Assembly: GCA_017616735.1 (NCBI GenBank)
Contig: JAFZXP010000034.1
Span: 1-48,714, forward strand
Source: Bacteroidales bacterium
GTDB lineage: Bacteria > Bacteroidota > Bacteroidia > Bacteroidales > F082
DNA: 48,714 bases
Reading direction: 5' to 3'
Shown here: piece after piece, positions 29,343 to 46,983 of the stretch
Layout of the letters: each line of letters begins with the position of its first letter
How positions within the stretch are numbered: the stretch's first letter is position 1
The notes under the pieces: generated by a model
The model's input: the letters and a program-made list of their open reading frames with translations, nothing else
Databases searched by the model: none
What the model was told of the DNA's origin: nothing
Translations under genes and position numbers: made by a program

Positions 29343-30092
29343 ATGACATTTACAGAGTTAGCAGAAAGCAGAGGCTATAAAAATTTCATGGCTAAGCTTT
29401 ATGGTATTGGTGCATCAGTCGTTATGATTGGCGCTTTGTTTAAACTTACACACATGTCGGTATTCGGATGGTCGGGAGCGGCCAACTTCATGCTGACACT
29501 CGGTCTGGTGGTTGAAGCTATCATCTTCTTCTTCTCAGCATTCGAGCCTATCCACGTCGAACCTGACTGGAGTTTGGTTTATCCGGAGATGTGGGATCTG
29601 TATCACGGCAACGGCACTGCTCCTTCCGAGAAATCAACCAAGCCGGCCAGAACAGCCACAGCCAACAACAACGCTAACCAGGATATCATCACCGAGCGTT
29701 TGGACGAGATGTTTGAGAAAGCCAACATTAACGCCCACACTATGGAGAAACTCAGCCAGGGCTTGACACGCTTGGGTGAGAATGCCAGCAAGATTGCCGA
29801 GGTGAGCGAAGCGGTGGCAGCCACAAGCAACTACGCCAAGGCTATGAATAAAGCTTCAGAGACAGTGATGGAACTCGATATGCAGATGGCCAAATCGGCA
29901 ACAGGTGCCGCCAACTATTCTGAGACCAACAAGAAACTCAACGACACCATGGCTCTCTACATCGAAAAGATCAATGCTTCAACAACATCGACAGAAACAT
30001 TGAACCGCGAGATGGTCGACATGTCGAAACGCATCAGCGCTATGAACAATGTTTATGGCAACATGCTCAACGCAATGAACATCAAAGCCTGA
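29343..30092 (+). CDS. gldL: Type IX secretion motor protein GldL/PorL
   Basis: This 249-residue inner-membrane protein has two helices near the N-terminus (about 18-35 and 46-65), then a long cytoplasmic coiled region. GldL pentamers around a GldM dimer form the proton-driven motor. Charged residues in or near the membrane are kept: Lys34 and His37 (LFKLTH), Glu58 (VVEAI) and Glu68 (FEPIH), with the same K/H and E/E spacing I recall for functional residues of Flavobacterium GldL. The 3' end is 22 bases from gldM. Confidence 0.96.
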   Translation: MTFTELAESRGYKNFMAKLYGIGASVVMIGALFKLTHMSVFGWSGAANFMLTLGLVVEAIIFFFSAFEPIHVEPDWSLVYPEMWDLYHGNGTAPSEKSTKPARTATANNNANQDIITERLDEMFEKANINAHTMEKLSQGLTRLGENASKIAEVSEAVAATSNYAKAMNKASETVMELDMQMAKSATGAANYSETNKKLNDTMALYIEKINASTTSTETLNREMVDMSKRISAMNNVYGNMLNAMNIKA

Positions 30093-30114
30093 CAATCTTA
30101 AAAGCTTTTAGAAA

Positions 30115-31812
30115 ATGGCAGGAGCAAAAGAAACACCAAGACAGAAGATGATCGGTATGATGTACCTGGTCTATACTGCGCTGTTGGCAATGAACGTCTC
30201 GGCCGATATCCTTGATGCTTTCTCTATCGTGAACGACGGTCAGGAGAGAACCAACGCCAGCATCGAGGTAAAGCTTGAAGACACCTACAGAGCTTTCGAG
30301 CAGCAGTATATGAAGGAACAGGACAAGACACAGGTGTATTGGGATTACGCCCAAGCCATCCGTGAGAAGTCTGACGAGATCATCAATTATATTGAAAAAG
30401 ACGTGAAGCTGCCGCTGTTGCTTCAGACAGAAGGCATCACCGAAGAAGAACTTTTCAACCCTAAAGACGCTGAGAAGAAGATTATCAGGAACTTGGATAA
30501 AGCCAACCCTGATAACCGTCGCGTTATATACGAGTTGAATCTGAAAAACGTCGGTTCCAAGGACAACTACGACACTCCAACCACCATTATGATCAACGAA
30601 GGCAAAGCCTCTGAGTTGAAACAGAAGATTCAGGAGTACCGCGAGTTTGTGGTTGGCACTTTGGAGTCGGCCGGTTTGAAAGACTACGGCAAACACGTGG
30701 GTCTGCTCACCGACTATGACCAAAACGGCAATCCTATTGCCTATTACGATGCCGACGGTCAGGAAATCAGCTGGGAGGAAAAGAATTTCAGCCACATTAT
30801 CTTCGTGGCCGAGATGGCAATCCTCAACAAGTTGGTTGGCGAGGTGCAGACAACAGAATACGACGCTGTGTCTGATTTGTCAGACAGAGTGGGCGCCACC
30901 GACTATAAGTTCAACAAGGTCGAGGCCAGAGTGATCGCCAAGAGCGACTACATCATCCAAGGTCAGGACTTCGAGGCTGAGGTTATCCTGCTTCCGTCCG
31001 ACACCATGAGCAACTTCTCGGCCAAATACGGCATGGGCATCAGAAACTTCAAGGACTACAAAGGCACCCCGATTGTGACTAAGAGCTCAGAAGGCGTGGT
31101 CAGACTGAAGATTCCGGGCAAGACCGCTGGTGAACAGAAACTTGCCGGTGTTATCGAGATAACCAACCCTGAGACAGGCGAGATAGAATATCATCCATTC
31201 GACGCCAGCTACATGGTGGCTCCGCCGTCAGTGACAGTGTCTCCAACCAAGATGATGGTTATGTATCAAGAGCTCCAGAACCCTATTTCAGTGGCTGCTC
31301 CGGGCTACACAGGCAACGACATCATCGTCAACGTTGAAGGCGGCAAGCTGACCAAAGACAACTCAGGCGCAGGCAACTACTTTGTGGAAGTCGACAAGAA
31401 CGCCCGCAAGGTGAATGTGAAGATTTCGGCAAAGGGCGCCGACGGCAAAACCATCGACCTCGGTACACAGGAATTCCGCGTGAAGCCGGTTCCTGACCCG
31501 GTGGTCAGAATAGGTGACGTTACAGGCGGTAAAGTCGAGAAGGAAGTGCTTTTGGTGGCCGACAAGATCATCGCCGTGATGAAAGACTTCGACTTCGATG
31601 GTTTCAACTACACCGTCGAGTCGTACACAGTATCGACATACAGAGGAACATTCATAGATAAAAACAACAGAGGACCTAAGTTTTCTGAAGAGGTGAGAGA
31701 ACTCATCAGAAACGCGCAGACCGGACAGAGAATTCAGTTCCAGGACATCTGCGTCAAGAGCCCTAAGGGCGATATCAGAAACGTCGGTTCGATAAACGTT
31801 CAAATCAAGTAA
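30115..31812 (+). CDS. gldM: Type IX secretion motor protein GldM/PorM
   Basis: This 565-residue protein has a short N-terminus PRQKMIGMMYLVYTALLAMN that is the single membrane helix in the motor core. A long periplasmic arm follows, made of helical then beta-sandwich domains (for example YKFNKVEARVIAKSDYI and PTKMMVMYQELQNPISVAAPG). GldM dimers run from the inner-membrane motor to the GldK/GldN ring and pass rotation to it. The length and end (FQDICVKSPKGD, SINVQIK) match the family. One base separates it from gldN. Confidence 0.96.
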   Translation: MAGAKETPRQKMIGMMYLVYTALLAMNVSADILDAFSIVNDGQERTNASIEVKLEDTYRAFEQQYMKEQDKTQVYWDYAQAIREKSDEIINYIEKDVKLPLLLQTEGITEEELFNPKDAEKKIIRNLDKANPDNRRVIYELNLKNVGSKDNYDTPTTIMINEGKASELKQKIQEYREFVVGTLESAGLKDYGKHVGLLTDYDQNGNPIAYYDADGQEISWEEKNFSHIIFVAEMAILNKLVGEVQTTEYDAVSDLSDRVGATDYKFNKVEARVIAKSDYIIQGQDFEAEVILLPSDTMSNFSAKYGMGIRNFKDYKGTPIVTKSSEGVVRLKIPGKTAGEQKLAGVIEITNPETGEIEYHPFDASYMVAPPSVTVSPTKMMVMYQELQNPISVAAPGYTGNDIIVNVEGGKLTKDNSGAGNYFVEVDKNARKVNVKISAKGADGKTIDLGTQEFRVKPVPDPVVRIGDVTGGKVEKEVLLVADKIIAVMKDFDFDGFNYTVESYTVSTYRGTFIDKNNRGPKFSEEVRELIRNAQTGQRIQFQDICVKSPKGDIRNVGSINVQIK

Positions 31813-31813
31813 T

Positions 31814-32665
31814 ATGAAAAAGGTAGTTTCAATAATTGCAGCTTCATTGTTCTGCTTCTTGCTCGACACCAACGTGTCGGCACAGATAACCAGCGACACA
31901 TACAACGACGGTCTGTACGTTGAAAACGGCACAGGCGTGAAGAAGATTGTCGCTTATCCTGAAGTACGTGAAGCCGATATCTTGTGGAAAAAGAGAGTAT
32001 GGCGTGAGATCGACTTCCGTCAGAAGATGAACCTCCCGTTCTACTATCCACGCGACAGCCATCAGAACTGGCGCCGTTTCATGGACGTCATAATGGACGC
32101 TTTGAAGGAAGGCAGATGCCAGGCTTACGAGGTGAACGTGACAGGCGAACTCAACAAACCTGTGCCTTACACCAAGTTGATGAACGGCTTGAACAGCACA
32201 CGTTATCAGTCGATGTACGATGACTACGGCAACAAGATTGGCGACACAGCCATCAGCATCGCTTTCAACCCCGAGTCGGTGACACGTTTGCGCGTGATGG
32301 AAGACTGGTACTTTGACGCACACCGCAGCCAGTTGATGGTGCGCATCGAGGCTATATGCCCGGTGACCATGCGCGATGTGAACGACAGCGTGCAGATGCC
32401 TAACGAGTTGTTCTGGATTCCGTTTGACGAGAACACCCGCTCGGTGCTGGCAGAGGCTCCGGTCTACAACCGTCAGAATTCGGCAGCCCGCATGTCGTAC
32501 GACGACTTGTTCTGGAAACGTCAGTTTGACAGCTATATCTACAAAGAAGAAAACGTCTACGACCGCAGCATTCAGGACTACGCCACCGGCGTGGAAGCCA
32601 TGCGTGAGTCGGAACGCATCAAACACGAAATCATAGATTTTGAACAGAGTGTTTGGGAGTACTAG
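31814..32665 (+). CDS. gldN: Type IX secretion ring protein GldN/PorN
   Basis: This 283-residue periplasmic protein has a signal peptide (about 1-22, ending VSAQ). The body has the GldN features WRRFMDVIMDALKEG, PYTKLMNGLN, YDDYGNK, VTRLRVMEDWYFD and a C-terminal ESERIKHEIIDFEQSVWEY. It forms the T9SS periplasmic ring with GldK and contacts GldM. It is the last gene of the operon and is followed by heptad repeats and a strong terminator. Confidence 0.96.
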   Translation: MKKVVSIIAASLFCFLLDTNVSAQITSDTYNDGLYVENGTGVKKIVAYPEVREADILWKKRVWREIDFRQKMNLPFYYPRDSHQNWRRFMDVIMDALKEGRCQAYEVNVTGELNKPVPYTKLMNGLNSTRYQSMYDDYGNKIGDTAISIAFNPESVTRLRVMEDWYFDAHRSQLMVRIEAICPVTMRDVNDSVQMPNELFWIPFDENTRSVLAEAPVYNRQNSAARMSYDDLFWKRQFDSYIYKEENVYDRSIQDYATGVEAMRESERIKHEIIDFEQSVWEY

Positions 32666-34581: not shown

Positions 34582-34600
34582 CGTGGTTTTTTTAAACAAG

Positions 34601-35857
34601 ATGAAAACGAGACACCTTATATTACTTCTGTTTGTATTTTTAATTTCTTGCTCTTCGCGAAAAGAAAAAGCATTCACCCCCGAGGAAGTCAGGCAATGGC
34701 CTGTTGTTAATGCCGACTCTATCTTCAAAGACCTGGATGCGCCCGTCATCAGCCAGAGGGCGGCTAAGATAGACAAAACTTGCACCAACCTGAAGAAAAA
34801 GACCACTTTCAACGGCACGGTGCTGTTTGCCGAGAAGGGCAGGGTGGTCTTGGTGAAGTCGTATGGAGTGAAAAATCTGCGCACACGCAAGGGCGAGCTG
34901 CACAACGACGATATCTATCAGCTCAGTTCGGTGTCAAAAATGTTCACCGCCGAGGCGATAATGATTCTCAAGTCGCGCGGTCTGATCGACTACGATGCTG
35001 ATATCCGTAAGTACATTCCCGAGTTCCCGTACGAAGGCATCACCACTCGCATGCTGCTCACGCACCGCTCGGGGCTGTCGCGTTACGAAACCTTGGCCGA
35101 CAACAACTGGCCAAACAAAAAGACTCCTTTCACCAACGACGACATGATAGATTATTATGTCAAGTACAAGCCCGATCCATATTTCAAGCCTGACAACGGT
35201 TTCCATTACTGCAACGTCAACTACGCCATGCTGGCAAGCATTGTGAAGCGGGTATCAGGCAAGCCGTTTGTCGACTTCATGCGTGAAGATTTGTTCGACG
35301 CTATAGGCATGCACCGCTCTTATATCTACGACATGCCCACCGACACAATGGTGTCGCTCTATTTGCCCGATTGCGTGCAGGGATACTATCTTGGACGTCG
35401 CCGGCCGCGTCAGGCTCAGAACGAATATCTGAACGGAGTCAAGGGCGATAAAATCATGTTTTCCAATGTCGAGGACATGTACCGTTTCAAGGTGGCCATC
35501 GACTATGGATTGCTGATGCCCGACAGCATACAGGCAGAGGCTTTTGTGCCCGGAAGCCCCAAGTATTCCAAACGAAAAGACAACTACGGATTCGGCTGGC
35601 GCATCTCACGCAAGCACCCCGGCTGTTACTACCATTACGGCTGGTGGAAGGGCTATCGTTCGTTCTTCCTCATCGATAAAGTCAACGACCGCACTTTGAT
35701 AGTGCTCACCAACACCGACAAGGGGCCTAATTCGGATGTTTTTTGGAACATCCTGACAGACAACACCATGCCTCTGGCACCCGCCTCAATCAACATACCT
35801 GTTGTGGAATTGGCCGAAGGCACCAGATTCCCTTGCAGCTCGTACAAAGACAGATAG
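34601..35857 (+). CDS. Serine hydrolase lipoprotein (class C beta-lactamase family)
   Basis: From the ATG at 34601 this is a 418-residue lipoprotein with signal ending LISC (Cys17). Active-site motifs of the beta-lactamase/penicillin-binding superfamily are complete: SVSK (Ser110, Lys113), YCN (Tyr203, Asn205) and HYG near the C-terminus. Such proteins can be esterases, D-amino-acid peptidases or beta-lactamases; the sequence alone does not say which. GTG at 34583 overlaps the promoter and is rejected. Its stop is 2 bases from the convergent response regulator. Confidence 0.88.
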   Translation: MKTRHLILLLFVFLISCSSRKEKAFTPEEVRQWPVVNADSIFKDLDAPVISQRAAKIDKTCTNLKKKTTFNGTVLFAEKGRVVLVKSYGVKNLRTRKGELHNDDIYQLSSVSKMFTAEAIMILKSRGLIDYDADIRKYIPEFPYEGITTRMLLTHRSGLSRYETLADNNWPNKKTPFTNDDMIDYYVKYKPDPYFKPDNGFHYCNVNYAMLASIVKRVSGKPFVDFMREDLFDAIGMHRSYIYDMPTDTMVSLYLPDCVQGYYLGRRRPRQAQNEYLNGVKGDKIMFSNVEDMYRFKVAIDYGLLMPDSIQAEAFVPGSPKYSKRKDNYGFGWRISRKHPGCYYHYGWWKGYRSFFLIDKVNDRTLIVLTNTDKGPNSDVFWNILTDNTMPLAPASINIPVVELAEGTRFPCSSYKDR

Positions 35858-35859
35858 TT

Positions 35860-36555
35860 TTAGCCGATGTTGTAAACTATCAGTTTGTAACCCAGTCCGT
35901 GCACGTTTTCCAACCTGACGTTTGGGTCGTCGCATAGCATGTCGCGCAACTTCTTGATGTAGACGTCCATGTTGCGCGCGTTGAAGTAGTTTTCCTGATT
36001 CCAAATTCTTTTCAGAGCCACCTGACGTTCAACCACACGGCCGAGGTATTCGTAGAAAAGCATAAGCAAATCCATCTCCTTGTTGGTCAGCTTGTGTGTG
36101 TTGCCGTTGATGTTCAGAGTGTGTCGCATGGTGTCGATGGTGTATCTTCCCAACGGCAGCAGATGCTGCGATTGCAGGTACATCTTGACTCTTCGCATAA
36201 TCGCCTGTATGCGCAGGCGCAGCTCTTCCATGCTGAATGGTTGGGCCAGGAAGTCGTCGACATCAACCTGAAAGCATTTGGCAATGTCGCTTTGCGGCAC
36301 ATTGCGGCCGAACATGATAATCGGAATGTCCTTGTTGGATTTGCGCACCTCCCGGGCCACTTCTATGCCGTCGATATAGGCAAGCGACACGTTGATGATC
36401 AGAAAGTTTAACTTTTCGCTTCTAAAGCAGCGCAGAGCTTCTCTGCCGTTCTCGCAGATGATGGTGGGATAACCGTTTGAAGCGAGATAATTCTTGGTTA
36501 TCATTGCCGTTTCACCATCGCCCTCTGCCAAAAGAATGTAATAGGGTCCTATCAT
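35860..36555 (-). CDS. RprY-like OmpR-family response regulator with degenerate receiver
   Basis: This 231-residue protein has an N-terminal receiver domain (1-118) and a C-terminal winged-helix DNA-binding domain (about 128-228, HKLTNKEMDLLMLFYEYLGR, FNARNMDVYIKKLRDML and VHGLGYKL). The DNA-binding part looks normal and close to Bacteroides RprY. The receiver is not: the phospho-acceptor Asp is Asn55 (IINVSL), the acidic pair is Glu11-Gly12 (AEGD), the switch Thr is Gly83 (IMFGRN), and the invariant Lys is Gln105 (AQPFSMEEL). It is unlikely to be phosphorylated and probably works by expression level or ligand. No kinase is adjacent. The -7 box TAACTTTG is at 36576-36583. Confidence 0.92.
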   Translation of the reverse strand: MIGPYYILLAEGDGETAMITKNYLASNGYPTIICENGREALRCFRSEKLNFLIINVSLAYIDGIEVAREVRKSNKDIPIIMFGRNVPQSDIAKCFQVDVDDFLAQPFSMEELRLRIQAIMRRVKMYLQSQHLLPLGRYTIDTMRHTLNINGNTHKLTNKEMDLLMLFYEYLGRVVERQVALKRIWNQENYFNARNMDVYIKKLRDMLCDDPNVRLENVHGLGYKLIVYNIG

Positions 36556-36575
36556 AATAGTGTGAATTGACCCGA

Positions 36576-36583
36576 CAAAGTTA
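36576..36583 (-). promoter_or_regulatory. Promoter (-7 box) of the atypical response regulator
   Basis: TAACTTTG on the minus strand matches TAnnTTTG and lies 21 bases before the start codon at 36555. Confidence 0.45.
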
Positions 36584-36710
36584 AATCACGAAAATTTGTT
36601 TAATATTTTTTGTGTTCGTAACACATTAAGTATCAATTATTTTTAACTTAATATGCGTTTTTTCGCACATATTGTTAAAAAATTTTTTCACCCAATCGAA
36701 AAAATAGTTG

Positions 36711-36718
36711 TATATTTG
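36711..36718 (+). promoter_or_regulatory. Promoter (-7 box) of the candidate small RNA
   Basis: TATATTTG matches TAnnTTTG exactly. The expected start of transcription is near 36725. A weak TTTTCA -33 element lies about 20 bp upstream. Confidence 0.55.
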
Positions 36719-36724
36719 CACCGT

Positions 36725-36840
36725 GAATGGCGTACATCCATAGTTCTCTATCCGAGAATTTGCGCTGTTCATAAAAGGTTTCATAAATTTTGGTTTTTGG
36801 TTCTGGAAACCGTCTCCGCTCAAGAGACGGTTTCTTTTTT
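36725..36840 (+). ncRNA. Candidate small RNA upstream of pgi
   Basis: This unit of about 115 bases has its own promoter (36711-36718) and its own intrinsic terminator (36806-36840), and no convincing reading frame. Two further hairpins are visible: GAATGG/CCAT..TTC (36725-36746, ATGG with CCAT) and TTCTC-TATCC-GAGAA (36744-36758). The pgi promoter lies downstream of the terminator, so this is not a pgi leader. It does not show the long central-bubble stem of 6S RNA, and I do not recognise it as a known family. The region 36556-36903 holds nothing else apart from the flanking promoters. Confidence 0.6.
36806..36840 (+). terminator. Intrinsic terminator of the candidate small RNA
   Basis: Perfect 11-bp stem GAAACCGTCTC (36806-36816) / GAGACGGTTTC (36824-36834), loop CGCTCAA, followed by a run of T bases. 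Confidence 0.9.
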
Positions 36841-36846
36841 TTGTAT

Positions 36847-36879
36847 TTTGCTGTAATTCAATAAAATTTTGTATATTCG
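36847..36879 (+). promoter_or_regulatory. Promoter of pgi
   Basis: A TTTG box (36847-36850) and TATATTCG (36872-36879) are 21 bp apart, starting just after the small-RNA terminator. The ATG follows at 36904. Confidence 0.5.
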
Positions 36880-36903
36880 CAAAAAATTAAAATCCTTTGT
36901 ATC

Positions 36904-38238
36904 ATGACTGACATAAAAGTAGATTTACGACAAGTAAAAGGTTTTCTGACTGACAATCAATTAGATACGTATAATAAAAAAGTGGCCGACACTTTCAAGA
37001 CCATTTATTCACGCACCGGAGCGGGCAACGATTTCCTTGGTTGGGTGAACCTGCCCTCGTCCATAACCCCTGATTTCATTAAAGATGTCAAGGCCAAGGC
37101 CGATGAACTCCGCAAGAAATCGGAGGTGTTTGTGGTTGTCGGCATTGGCGGTTCATATCTTGGTGCCCGCGCTGTCATCGAGGCGTTGAGCAATCATTTC
37201 GCATCAATGGTGGCATCAGGCAACCCGACTATAGTTTATGCCGGTCACAACATGAGCGAGGATTACATGCACGACCTCCTGAAGCTTCTTGATGAAAAGG
37301 AATATTCGATGACGGTGATTTCCAAATCGGGAACCACCACCGAGCCGGCCGTGGCATTCAGAATCTTGAAAAACCATATCGAAAAGAAATACGGCAAGGC
37401 CGAAGCCCGCACCCGTATCGTGGCCATCACCGACAAGGCTAAGGGTGCCCTGAAGGTTTTATCCGACAGCGAGGGTTACAAAACATATGTGGTGCCTGAC
37501 GATGTCGGCGGACGTTATTCGGTGCTGACTCCTGTCGGTTTATTGCCTATTGCAGTGGCTGGCATCGACATCGAGCAGCTGGTTGCAGGCGCTCGTCTGA
37601 TGGAAAAATATTGTCTCGACAATCAAAACGAGAACAACGAGACTGCAAAGTATGCTGTGGCGCGCCAGGCACTTCATCACAATGGCAAGGCTACCGAGAT
37701 TCTTGTCAATTACGAGCCTCGTCTGTGTTACTTCAGCGAATGGTGGAAGCAGCTTTATGGCGAAAGCGAAGGCAAGGACGGCAAGGGCATCTTCCCGGCC
37801 AGTGTCACCTTCACCACCGACTTGCACTCGATGGGACAGTACATACAGGAAGGCGTGCGCAACCTTATGGAAACAGTTATCAGCGTTGAGAATCCTAACA
37901 GCGAGATGCGTATTCCAAGCGACGACGCCAACCTCGACCAGATGAATTATATAGCCGGACGCCGTCTCAACGAGGTGAATCAAACCGCCGAGAAGGCTAC
38001 AATCTTGGCCCATGTTGACGGAGGCGTGCCAAATATCCGCATTGCAGTGCCAGCCATCAATGCCAACGTGCTCGGACAGCTGATATACTTCTTCGAGATA
38101 GGATGCGCGCTGAGCGGCTATATGCTGGAGGTGAACCCGTTCAACCAACCGGGCGTGGAGGCTTACAAAAAGAATATGTTCGCATTGCTCGGCAAACCGG
38201 GATATGAAGAACTGAGAAGTAAACTTGAGAAAAGATAA
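36904..38238 (+). CDS. pgi: Glucose-6-phosphate isomerase
   Basis: Pgi interconverts glucose-6-phosphate and fructose-6-phosphate in glycolysis and gluconeogenesis. The 444-residue length is that of the short bacterial form. Family motifs: VVVGIGGSYLGARAVIEAL, VISKSGTTTEPAVAFRIL (sugar-phosphate binding), DDVGGRYSVLTPVGLLPIAVAG (PGI signature 1 region), the catalytic Glu region SDDANLDQMNYIAGR and the C-terminal FNQPGVEAYKKNMFALLG with the catalytic Lys. It has its own promoter and is followed by a repeat-filled gap. Confidence 0.97.
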   Translation: MTDIKVDLRQVKGFLTDNQLDTYNKKVADTFKTIYSRTGAGNDFLGWVNLPSSITPDFIKDVKAKADELRKKSEVFVVVGIGGSYLGARAVIEALSNHFASMVASGNPTIVYAGHNMSEDYMHDLLKLLDEKEYSMTVISKSGTTTEPAVAFRILKNHIEKKYGKAEARTRIVAITDKAKGALKVLSDSEGYKTYVVPDDVGGRYSVLTPVGLLPIAVAGIDIEQLVAGARLMEKYCLDNQNENNETAKYAVARQALHHNGKATEILVNYEPRLCYFSEWWKQLYGESEGKDGKGIFPASVTFTTDLHSMGQYIQEGVRNLMETVISVENPNSEMRIPSDDANLDQMNYIAGRRLNEVNQTAEKATILAHVDGGVPNIRIAVPAINANVLGQLIYFFEIGCALSGYMLEVNPFNQPGVEAYKKNMFALLGKPGYEELRSKLEKR

Positions 38239-45151: not shown

Positions 45152-45910
45152 TTATTCGGAGAACCAGTTCTTGAACTCGCTCACCTTAGCCTTGCTGATA
45201 ATTATCTTTTCAGGAATATCGACTGTCAGATTTATTGACAACTTGTTGCCAAACCAAACGGTCATGTCTTGTATCGCTTTGCGCGAGATGATGAATTGAC
45301 GGTTGGCGCGGAAGAAGTCTTGCGGATTGAGCTGCTCCATGATGTCGTCGAGAGTCTGGCTCATGTAGTGGGTTTGCCCTTCCAAGGTGACAACTTTCAC
45401 CATTTTGGTGTCAATATAGAAATAGGCTATGCTGGCGGTTGGCAGCGGCACCAGCTTGTCGCGCATCGGAACCAAAAAACACGATTTGTATTTCTTTGTA
45501 GTGCCAAGATGTTGAAGCAAATTTGTCAGAGCCTGATTGTCAACCGAGTTGTTGGCTACCAGACTTTTATATTTATTCATGGCTCGAGTCAAATCGTTGC
45601 GGTTGATAGGCTTCAGAAGATAGTCTATGCTGCTGACTTCAAAGGCTTTAAGTGCATATTCGTCGTAAGCCGTGGTGAAGATGATAGGGCAGGTTATCTC
45701 AACCTGCTCGAAGATGGCAAACGACGAGCCGTCGGCCAGGTGAATGTCCATGAAAACCAAGTCGGGCATGGCATTCTCGTTGAACCACACCACGCTTTCC
45801 TCTATCGACTGCAATGTCGCGATGATTTCGGTGTCGGGCGCCACTTCTGTTATCAGTTTCTGCAGCGACTGTGCCGCCAAAACTTCGTCTTCTATGATTA
45901 AAGCCTTCAT
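45152..45910 (-). CDS. LytTR-family response regulator
   Basis: From the ATG at 45910 this is a 252-residue regulator. The receiver is complete: ALIIEDE, phospho-acceptor Asp55 (LVFMDIHL), Thr79/80 (IFTTAYDEYA) and Lys100 (LLKPI). The C-terminal LytTR domain (about 145-250, FLVPMRDKLVPLPTASIAYFY and FFRANRQFIISRKAI) binds DNA through beta strands. It pairs with the histidine kinase that ends 2 bases upstream of its start. This is a standard two-component pair; it is not PorX, which carries a different output domain. Target genes are unknown. Confidence 0.95.
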   Translation of the reverse strand: MKALIIEDEVLAAQSLQKLITEVAPDTEIIATLQSIEESVVWFNENAMPDLVFMDIHLADGSSFAIFEQVEITCPIIFTTAYDEYALKAFEVSSIDYLLKPINRNDLTRAMNKYKSLVANNSVDNQALTNLLQHLGTTKKYKSCFLVPMRDKLVPLPTASIAYFYIDTKMVKVVTLEGQTHYMSQTLDDIMEQLNPQDFFRANRQFIISRKAIQDMTVWFGNKLSINLTVDIPEKIIISKAKVSEFKNWFSE

Positions 45911-45912
45911 AA

Positions 45913-46983
45913 TCAATTATTTTTTATCAACGGCAACTTCACGCAGAATGTGCTTCCGTTGTTGGTGATTTCAACATTTTTGTTCCATTTCAGACGATAA
46001 CGCTCAGTGAGGTTGGCCAGTCCTATGCCGTTGCTTTCCTCGGGTGTTGTCTTGGCTTGGATGGGGTTGGACACCGAAACACTGTCGCGGTCGGTTGCCA
46101 CAGTCACCACCAGTGGTTGCTTTGACGAAATGATATTGTGCTTGACCGAGTTCTCGATGAGCGACTGCAACGACAACGGCAAAACGCTGTAATCGTTGTA
46201 CTTTTCGTCAATCTGGAATTCAAACTTCAGGTTGTCGCCGTAACGTATCTGCAACATGTCGCAATAGGCGTGCACGCATTTCAACTCTTCATATAAGCTT
46301 AAAACCTCTTTGTTTTGCAGGGTGTAACGCAGCACCGACGACAGTTGCTGCAGGTAATTCCCGGCTTTTTCGGCATCTAAAGTGATGAGCGACTGCAAGG
46401 TGTTGAGCGAGTTGAACAGAAAATGCGGGTCGAGCTGGCTTTTAAGCGCCTCGAAACGTGTCAGGATGTTCTCGCTGCGCAACGCTTCGTTTTCAACGGC
46501 TATGGTTTTCTGATAATATTGCGACCTGAGCAATTGAACCACAAGCAAAACCATGGCTGTCATAGTTAAATCCCTGACCAAACTGTCCCTCATCACGTTA
46601 TACAAAAACTCTGCGCTTGGATGTTGAGGCGACAGAGCCGCTCTTGTATAAACGAAGCCAATGCTGAAAACAGCTCCAATTGCTATTGATCCTAAAACCG
46701 TGAGTGAAAGCTCGGTCCATCTGCTTTTGAATGAAAAACTTAAAATGTAACGGTTGTACAAGAGTATCAGAAATACTATGATAAAACTTGTGGTGAAGAA
46801 ATACAGAAATCTTCCAAAATGAAAGTGATGTGGATGGACGGCATTTACTATCTCGCTTGAAAACAACGAGTTGCCGAAGAAAAACGACATCATCATAATC
46901 ACATGAAAGCCAAGGCTGATGATAATAGCCACCAGGGCTATCGTTTTAATGGAAAGATATTCAGGTGCTGTATGTTTATTCAT
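45913..46983 (-). CDS. Sensor histidine kinase of the LytS/YehU (HisKA_6) type
   Basis: This 356-residue kinase has four membrane helices (about 13-35, 60-78, 91-112 and 138-152) with short loops and no large periplasmic sensor. The phosphorylation motif is QLDPHFLFNSLN with His187. The ATPase region has LIENSVKHNI (N box) and NGIGLANLTERY (G box). It would phosphorylate the LytTR regulator encoded directly downstream. Its promoter (47003-47010) lies within the trxB terminator hairpin. The signal is unknown; the lack of a sensor domain suggests a membrane-embedded signal. Confidence 0.94.
   Translation of the reverse strand: MNKHTAPEYLSIKTIALVAIIISLGFHVIMMMSFFFGNSLFSSEIVNAVHPHHFHFGRFLYFFTTSFIIVFLILLYNRYILSFSFKSRWTELSLTVLGSIAIGAVFSIGFVYTRAALSPQHPSAEFLYNVMRDSLVRDLTMTAMVLLVVQLLRSQYYQKTIAVENEALRSENILTRFEALKSQLDPHFLFNSLNTLQSLITLDAEKAGNYLQQLSSVLRYTLQNKEVLSLYEELKCVHAYCDMLQIRYGDNLKFEFQIDEKYNDYSVLPLSLQSLIENSVKHNIISSKQPLVVTVATDRDSVSVSNPIQAKTTPEESNGIGLANLTERYRLKWNKNVEITNNGSTFCVKLPLIKNN

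Follow-up and report, generated by a model that had tools for sequence, protein, structure and literature searches.

An RprY-lineage regulator with a degraded receiver pocket beside a divergent candidate small RNA in gut Bacteroidales

Some two-component systems drive small RNAs (OmpR with OmrA/OmrB, CpxR with CpxQ), and HP1043 of Helicobacter is an orphan homologous to CosR of Campylobacter. In the CosR/CosS system itself, the kinase is present in some species only, those without it carry Asn or Ser in place of the phospho-acceptor Asp, and phosphorylation independence has been proposed for CosR (available excerpts of PMC3938529). D55 is the putative phosphorylation site of RprY in Porphyromonas gingivalis, where rprY is co-transcribed with pat (excerpts of PMC6032018). 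More generally, pseudo-receivers make up ~6% of bacterial receivers and the characterised ones are mostly orphans, according to the consulted parts of a review (PMC12632262) in whose text no word beginning with Bacteroid occurs. Kinase loss with Asp-to-Asn/Ser replacement (CosR) and RprY without RprX (P. gingivalis) are thus already known, at least from these partial sources.

The locus described here lies in a stretch of 48,714 nucleotides of Bacteroidales DNA (the window). It resembles CosR/CosS in its OmpR-type regulator, its patchy kinase and the change of Asp to Asn or Ser without the kinase, but it involves a different gene and lineage, its clade has also lost Asp12, Thr83 and Lys105, a divergent small RNA (sRNA) is linked to it, and one genus, Candidatus Limimorpha, retains short-kinase, kinase-less intact and partly broken forms (comparison with the excerpts of PMC3938529). 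As in P. gingivalis, this is an RprY ortholog whose partner RprX was lost; unlike there, its pocket is broken and pat is not among its neighbours (PMC6032018, in part). With ChxR, GlnR, FrzS and RamR it shares a receiver fold recognised by PF00072 without the active-site residues (PMC12632262, in part). The Limimorpha case differs from these in that a single ortholog has undergone parallel losses inside one genus. Its likeness to OmpR-OmrA/OmrB and CpxR-CpxQ, a circuit of regulator and sRNA, is suggested by divergent linkage; unlike OmrA/OmrB and CpxQ, the window sRNA has no Rfam match, and its control by the regulator is a prediction from sequence. Within the titles and abstract openings of the open-licence literature, no report on a pseudo-receiver RprY or an RprXY-linked sRNA is apparent. 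The sRNA neighbour is a less expected part of the locus than the loss of the kinase and Asp.

The gene and its flanks are arranged as follows.

34583..35857, plus strand: serine hydrolase (Beta-lactamase family PF00144), flanking, convergent with rprY
35860..36555, minus strand: rprY-lineage OmpR/PhoB-type regulator with a pseudo-receiver, 231 aa (intact ORF, domain and family models)
35881..36102, minus strand: winged-helix DNA-binding domain, residues 152-225 (Pfam)
36208..36537, minus strand: receiver domain with degraded phosphorylation pocket (G12, N55, G83, Q105; Pfam match and codons)
36391..36393, minus strand: Asn55 codon AAC at the phospho-acceptor position (alignment and codon read)
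36523-36525 (E11), 36520-36522 (G12, GGC), 36307-36309 (G83, GGC) and 36241-36243 (Q105, CAA), minus strand: other pocket codons
36904..38238, plus strand: pgi (phosphoglucose isomerase), flanking

The protein has the OmpR/PhoB architecture, with an N-terminal receiver (Response_reg, PF00072, 63.7 bits, residues 7-116) and a C-terminal winged helix (Trans_reg_C, PF00486, 60.1 bits, residues 152-225), both above the Pfam cut-offs. The codons bear out the four pocket replacements (G12, N55, G83, Q105) named in a first-pass annotation of this DNA, and the 231-aa ORF with its Trans_reg_C match agrees with the intact frame and DNA-binding domain described there. Four of the five residues of a phosphorylatable receiver (acidic pair, phospho-acceptor Asp, Thr/Ser and Lys) are lost, Glu11 being the sole survivor, while F102 and G63 are retained. 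The K+2 position is Phe107, and Phe at K+2 has been tied to inactive CheY conformations (PMC12632262, in part). Among 78 NCBIfam models the top match is RprY (NF051850, 220.2 bits), followed by PhoB of Bacteroidetes (122.8); at 220 bits the protein does not reach the curated equivalog cut-off of NF051850 (370) and is therefore RprY-like but under the curated threshold, which is passed in just 46 of the 149 genomes of our order sample. Its status as an RprY ortholog is backed by a locus in common (pgi, sRNA, (rprX), rprY, serine hydrolase) and by a gene tree with the RprXY of relatives. The 2.08-Mb window assembly, 80.5% complete, has five receiver matches in total; a canonical RprY paralog, raised in the first-pass annotation, was sought in it and not found (no second match to window RprY at 1e-10). 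As the first-pass annotation stated, no histidine kinase adjoins rprY, and no match to an RprX profile was found at 1e-25 in this 80.5% complete genome. The window holds a separate two-component pair at 45152-46983 on the minus strand, a LytTR response regulator with an adjoining His_kinase-family sensor, and what we take to be gldL/gldM/gldN-like genes of the type IX secretion system at 29343-32665 on the plus strand.

The window RprY clade belongs to Candidatus Limimorpha, a livestock-gut Bacteroidales genus. The close named relatives of the window genome are metagenome assemblies, many of them labelled with a host (water buffalo, yak, goat, deer, cattle, horse) and a gut site (omasum, abomasum, reticulum, cecum, colon, rectum, feces). 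RprY is matched at 1e-10 in 93 of 99 genus genomes, including that of the window, the other six being without a match. The alignment comprises 87 distinct rows from 86 genomes (two from G028), after setting aside L064, L076, L079, L086 and L103 (residues 11-150 duplicate another row), duplicate retrievals of a gene, G061 (which has just a distant paralog) and G091 (fragmentary). With an intact pocket defined as acidic residues at 12 and 13, Asp55, Thr/Ser83 and Lys105, the pocket is intact in 60 rows and broken in 27. Nineteen broken rows, the window among them, form one RprY clade (SH-aLRT 99; 100/99 in another tree), in which Gly83 is universal and neither Lys105 nor Asp12 occurs in any row, residue 105 being Arg, Ser, Cys, Leu or Gln. 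The first-pass annotation had asked whether the four changes are kept in relatives: the losses of Asp12, Thr83 and Lys105 hold throughout (19/19), but 16 of these rows still have Asp55, Asn recurring in G006 and G094 (codons AAC and AAT). The refuting condition set there, canonical residues in orthologs of the clade, thus does not apply to Lys and Thr but does apply to Asp55. A grouping of window, G006 and G094 is rejected (AU p 0.019), with the window pairing instead with L008 (97/93); two origins of Asn55 are implied, though the branches are long. The remaining eight broken rows keep Thr/Ser83 and Lys105 and have lost Asp12, and six of them have also replaced Asp55, by Ser (G029, G035, G041), Cys (G034) or Glu (G022, G023). 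Parsimony at position 55 gives six letter changes, of which four are between Asp and not-Asp. The Glu at the phospho-acceptor of G022 and G023 (L028, L030), with Thr and Lys kept and a receiver omega of 0.008, is a possible built-in phosphomimic.

The distribution of the kinase was traced with an RprX profile built from 14 of the 30 best-scoring loci of the order sample, in all 30 of which RprY is directly preceded by a histidine kinase. RprX stands directly beside rprY in 21 of 99 genus genomes (168-316 bits), not counting a match in G011:C17 (199 bits) that adjoins a different regulator; other matches do not exceed 123 bits. The pocket is intact in all 21 RprX-bearing rows, whereas the 66 RprX-less rows divide into 39 intact and 27 broken; no RprX adjoins any of the 27 pocket-broken rows, including all those with Ser, Cys or Glu at position 55. 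The 39 intact RprX-less rows weigh against any simple rule relating kinase and pocket. Independent pairs are two concordant, none discordant and two undecided in most pairings, events so few that the association cannot reach significance and that an order of kinase first, pocket later is consistent with them but unproven. All eight RprX found in the 38-row clade to which the window belongs are short, with open frames of 233-323 aa versus 332-583 in the other 13, and an intact RprY stands beside each (L046, L048, L032, L035, L034, L063, L120, L031). Two aligned short RprX begin near the histidine box, that is, without the sensor part, and stop codons interrupt the matched RprX stretch in G049, G045 and G001.

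Between rprY and the divergent pgi lies a block, the sRNA with its -7 box, that is much better conserved than the proteins; the features of the intergenic region are the following.

36576..36583, minus strand: candidate rprY -7 box, TAACTTTG
36618..36647, minus strand: candidate operator between the two promoters, clade consensus GTTAAAA-N4-TTMATAATGAAYGATTTA, window copy diverged
36711..36718, plus strand: candidate sRNA -7 box, TATATTTG
36723..36841, plus strand: sRNA gene, ~119 nt (covarying 5' hairpin, 30-nt core, intrinsic terminator; 5' end estimated from the -7 box)
36775-36804, plus strand: sRNA 30-nt core
36805-36841, plus strand: sRNA intrinsic terminator

The sRNA -7 box follows the Bacteroidota consensus TAnnTTTG in 18 of 18 clade members read (G005, its locus at a contig edge, being omitted). 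RNAalifold on 18 sequences gives 42 pairs, 17 with compensatory changes, and across 46 distinct sRNA rows pairing holds in 98.3% of cells. Both sides have changed in 298 cells, against 71.7 in shuffled and 22-44 in slid controls, though fitting the alignment to the model favours it. The core's helix 3 is nearly invariant and has no covariation support; the window copy folds with z = -5.0. Compensatory changes beyond controls, a candidate promoter and a terminator, the marks of a structured sRNA, are thus all present. The model matches 90 of 99 genus genomes, with one copy in 89 and two in G003. Rfam 15 gave no match at gathering score over the whole window. With E relaxed to 5, the interval 36500-36960 drew 12 matches, every one well short of its gathering score and none of them 6S, so a known Rfam family is rejected; the sRNA is a candidate new family outside Rfam 15. 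A search of 21 genomes for complements of part of the core (at most two mismatches) yielded scattered extra sites and no recurrent target; of ten such loci inspected, some lie in A-rich stretches just 5' of a possible start codon, and three have a similar context that is not leader-like.

Linkage of the sRNA to rpr(X)Y is widespread in the genus. It was found at 48 of 91 rprY-locus sources which, with G031, gives 49 Limimorpha genomes in which it is divergent from rpr(X)Y. Outside one 34-row clade, the divergent arrangement holds in 49 of 53 rows: 20 of 21 with RprX (exception G085), 18 of 19 in the window clade (exception G005, contig edge), 9 of 10 in the L023-L047 group (exception G011) and both of G064 and G090; in G041 the sRNA was neither at rprY (contig edge) nor matched elsewhere in the genome. 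Within the 34-row clade no fetched locus has the sRNA beside rprY. Four viewed loci of that clade (L050, L058, L072, L096) represent an RprX-less Limimorpha lineage with an intact receiver pocket, in which rprY is directly beside pgi with no RprX or sRNA between. The outer neighbour of the sRNA-rpr(X)Y unit varies among pgi, groEL and a primase-like gene (presumably groEL in G010 and the primase-like gene in G022), and since the sRNA accompanies rpr(X)Y through these changes, the sRNA as a part of pgi is rejected as the main reading.

Outside the genus, the layout pgi-sRNA-rprX-rprY recurs in G199 and G171. Among 26 fetched loci with a 22-nt core, RprX is adjacent in nine genomes of four families (L303, L304, L306, L307, L320, L322-L325; f74, f102, f107, f84), a tenth with a weaker kinase match (L330) being uncounted and the other 16 having no such match; RprY itself was checked in G199, G171 and, by coordinates, G181. 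The sRNA model R1 matches 6 of the 149 genomes of the order sample, namely two Limimorpha, G199 and G171 beside rprXY, and weakly G239 and G207, where no RprX adjoins the site, and model R2 has no match at 14 order RprXY loci (L279-L292). The 30-nt core at up to three mismatches occurs in 4 of 393 order genomes, all Limimorpha, and the 22-nt core at up to two mismatches in 40 of 384; since its reversed control gave 14, many core matches without an adjoining RprX are probably chance.

Tandem repeats are the usual site layout of OmpR/PhoB regulators, and in each of the eight non-genus loci tested the stretch from sRNA to rprX contains GTTAA repeats 10 bp apart (13 pairs versus 0.01 expected). 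These direct repeats with a 10-bp period (L303, L304, L306, L307, L320, L322, L323, L325) constitute a candidate RprY box. They occur upstream of RprX in only 6 of 18 order loci and are therefore not general, in 2 of 16 other Limimorpha loci (missing in 14) and in none of seven tested loci of the window clade. The window clade instead shares the operator-like element GTTAAAA-N4-TTMATAATGAAYGATTTA. A search allowing up to three mismatches recovers it between the two genes in 16 of 19 clade genomes, missing the copies in the window genome, G005 and G078, and at two other sites in all; since the pattern was drawn from this position, what is informative is its scarcity elsewhere.

The best-supported reading, as the first-pass annotation had proposed in part, is that window RprY is an orphan, phosphorylation-independent regulator, and we consider it rather probable that it would act on the shared rprY/sRNA promoter region. 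RprX would have been lost in the lineage, presumably before the pocket, with rprY persisting as an orphan whose pseudo-receiver would still fold and whose protein would bind DNA without phosphorylation, probably as a dimer. The binding site would most likely be in the ~130 bp between the rprY -7 box and the divergent sRNA -7 box, and RprY abundance, or a non-phospho input to the receiver, would set sRNA output; the promoters under control and its sign, the sRNA targets and the regulation of RprY itself are likewise predicted. This reading draws on the observed pocket loss, the absence of a detectable RprX, the intact pocket of all RprX rows, low omega from purifying selection in relatives, conservation of the DNA-binding domain and of the putative dimer residues, the sRNA with its linkage, the GTTAA repeats of the non-genus loci and the operator-like element. 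Its simplest form is opposed by Phe107 at K+2, the missing GTTAA repeats and the diverged operator copy of the window. Also against the reading are the few independent events behind the kinase/pocket association, the 39 intact RprX-less rows, the lack of the sRNA beside rprY in all fetched loci of the 34-row clade and its non-detection by the model at 14 order RprXY loci.

Some of these same observations would suit a functional pseudo-receiver whose regulon lies elsewhere, the sRNA being an old neighbour under independent control, a reading that we regard as unlikely. The 34-row clade, where the sRNA lies away from rprY when the model finds one and in some genomes is not found, would be so explained, as would the many order RprXY loci that show no such sRNA and the lack of GTTAA repeats in most Limimorpha loci tested. 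Against it, the Limimorpha pairing of sRNA and rpr(X)Y persists through changes of the outer neighbour, their linkage recurs in four other families, and the operator-like element is almost confined to the space between them.

Window RprY might still be controlled by a ligand or a covalent modification away from Asp55, a small molecule or acetylation being examples, which seems doubtful as a separate account and is compatible with the orphan-regulator reading as its input. The conserved receiver needs some purpose, and the kinase-less RprY of P. gingivalis is acetylated, with DNA binding reduced (PMC6032018, in part). The window neighbours are pgi, the serine hydrolase and a DEAD-box helicase, however, and no acetyltransferase gene is adjacent.

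Selection bears on a further alternative, a decaying receiver relic in which the DNA-binding domain alone still matters. Branches in the clade are long (window 0.38, L008 0.55, L012 0.65, L073 0.68) and five different residues replace Lys105, yet Nei-Gojobori omega for pocket-broken receivers of close pairs in the window clade is 0.035, 0.041, 0.038, 0.101, 0.064 and 0.083, similar to the 0.028-0.162 of ten intact receiver pairs. The Asp55-to-Ser pair gives 0.012 and the Asp55-to-Glu pair 0.008, one more broken pair yields no value because its dS is saturated, and several dS values in this whole set exceed 1. Such low values (0.008-0.101) indicate that the receiver is maintained rather than decaying, and the first-pass annotation had likewise held that the gene is not decaying; Gly83 and Phe102 are invariant in the clade and no stop is reported within any RprY clade match. 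The relic reading is accordingly very improbable, and a decaying gene is ruled out by the receiver omega of close relatives. Window and nearest row give omega 0.20 for the receiver (dS 1.9) and 0.14 for the DNA-binding domain (dS 1.7). Across 51 orthologs, R177, W185, A193, R194, D197, V198, Y199, R204, H219 and G222 of the DNA-binding domain are invariant, and conservation is 90% or more at D101, E111, R115 and R122, which we take to be residues of the OmpR/PhoB alpha4-beta5-alpha5 dimer. That Asn55 is an assembly or sequencing error in a single genome is scarcely credible: the species is represented by one genome and residue 55 is Asp in 16 of 19 clade rows, but the other three changes are clade-wide and Asn55 recurs with codons AAC and AAT, so a lone error is ruled out.

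The window regulator, kept by selection despite loss of kinase and phosphorylation site, would thus probably work by a different route. Tentatively, and with a little less than even confidence, the phosphorylation-independent reading may extend further: rprXY in several Bacteroidales families may be a two-component system built around one dedicated, undescribed divergent sRNA. In Limimorpha the kinase may first have become sensorless and later disappeared from several lineages, while receiver chemistry decayed in parallel (Asn, Ser, Cys, Glu) and the regulator-sRNA unit survived as a circuit independent of phosphorylation; the genus would then display, as a natural series, the stages by which a two-component system is converted.

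Activation and inactivation of bacterial pseudo-receivers are described as a major unknown in the consulted parts of a 2025 review (PMC12632262). Limimorpha, a single genus, seems to hold a kinase with an intact pocket, a short sensorless kinase, an intact pocket without kinase, a partly broken pocket, the loss of four of five residues and parallel endpoints, stages that open the way to testing ordered comparisons in gut commensals. For RprXY in these families, the linked sRNA would be a concrete candidate output.
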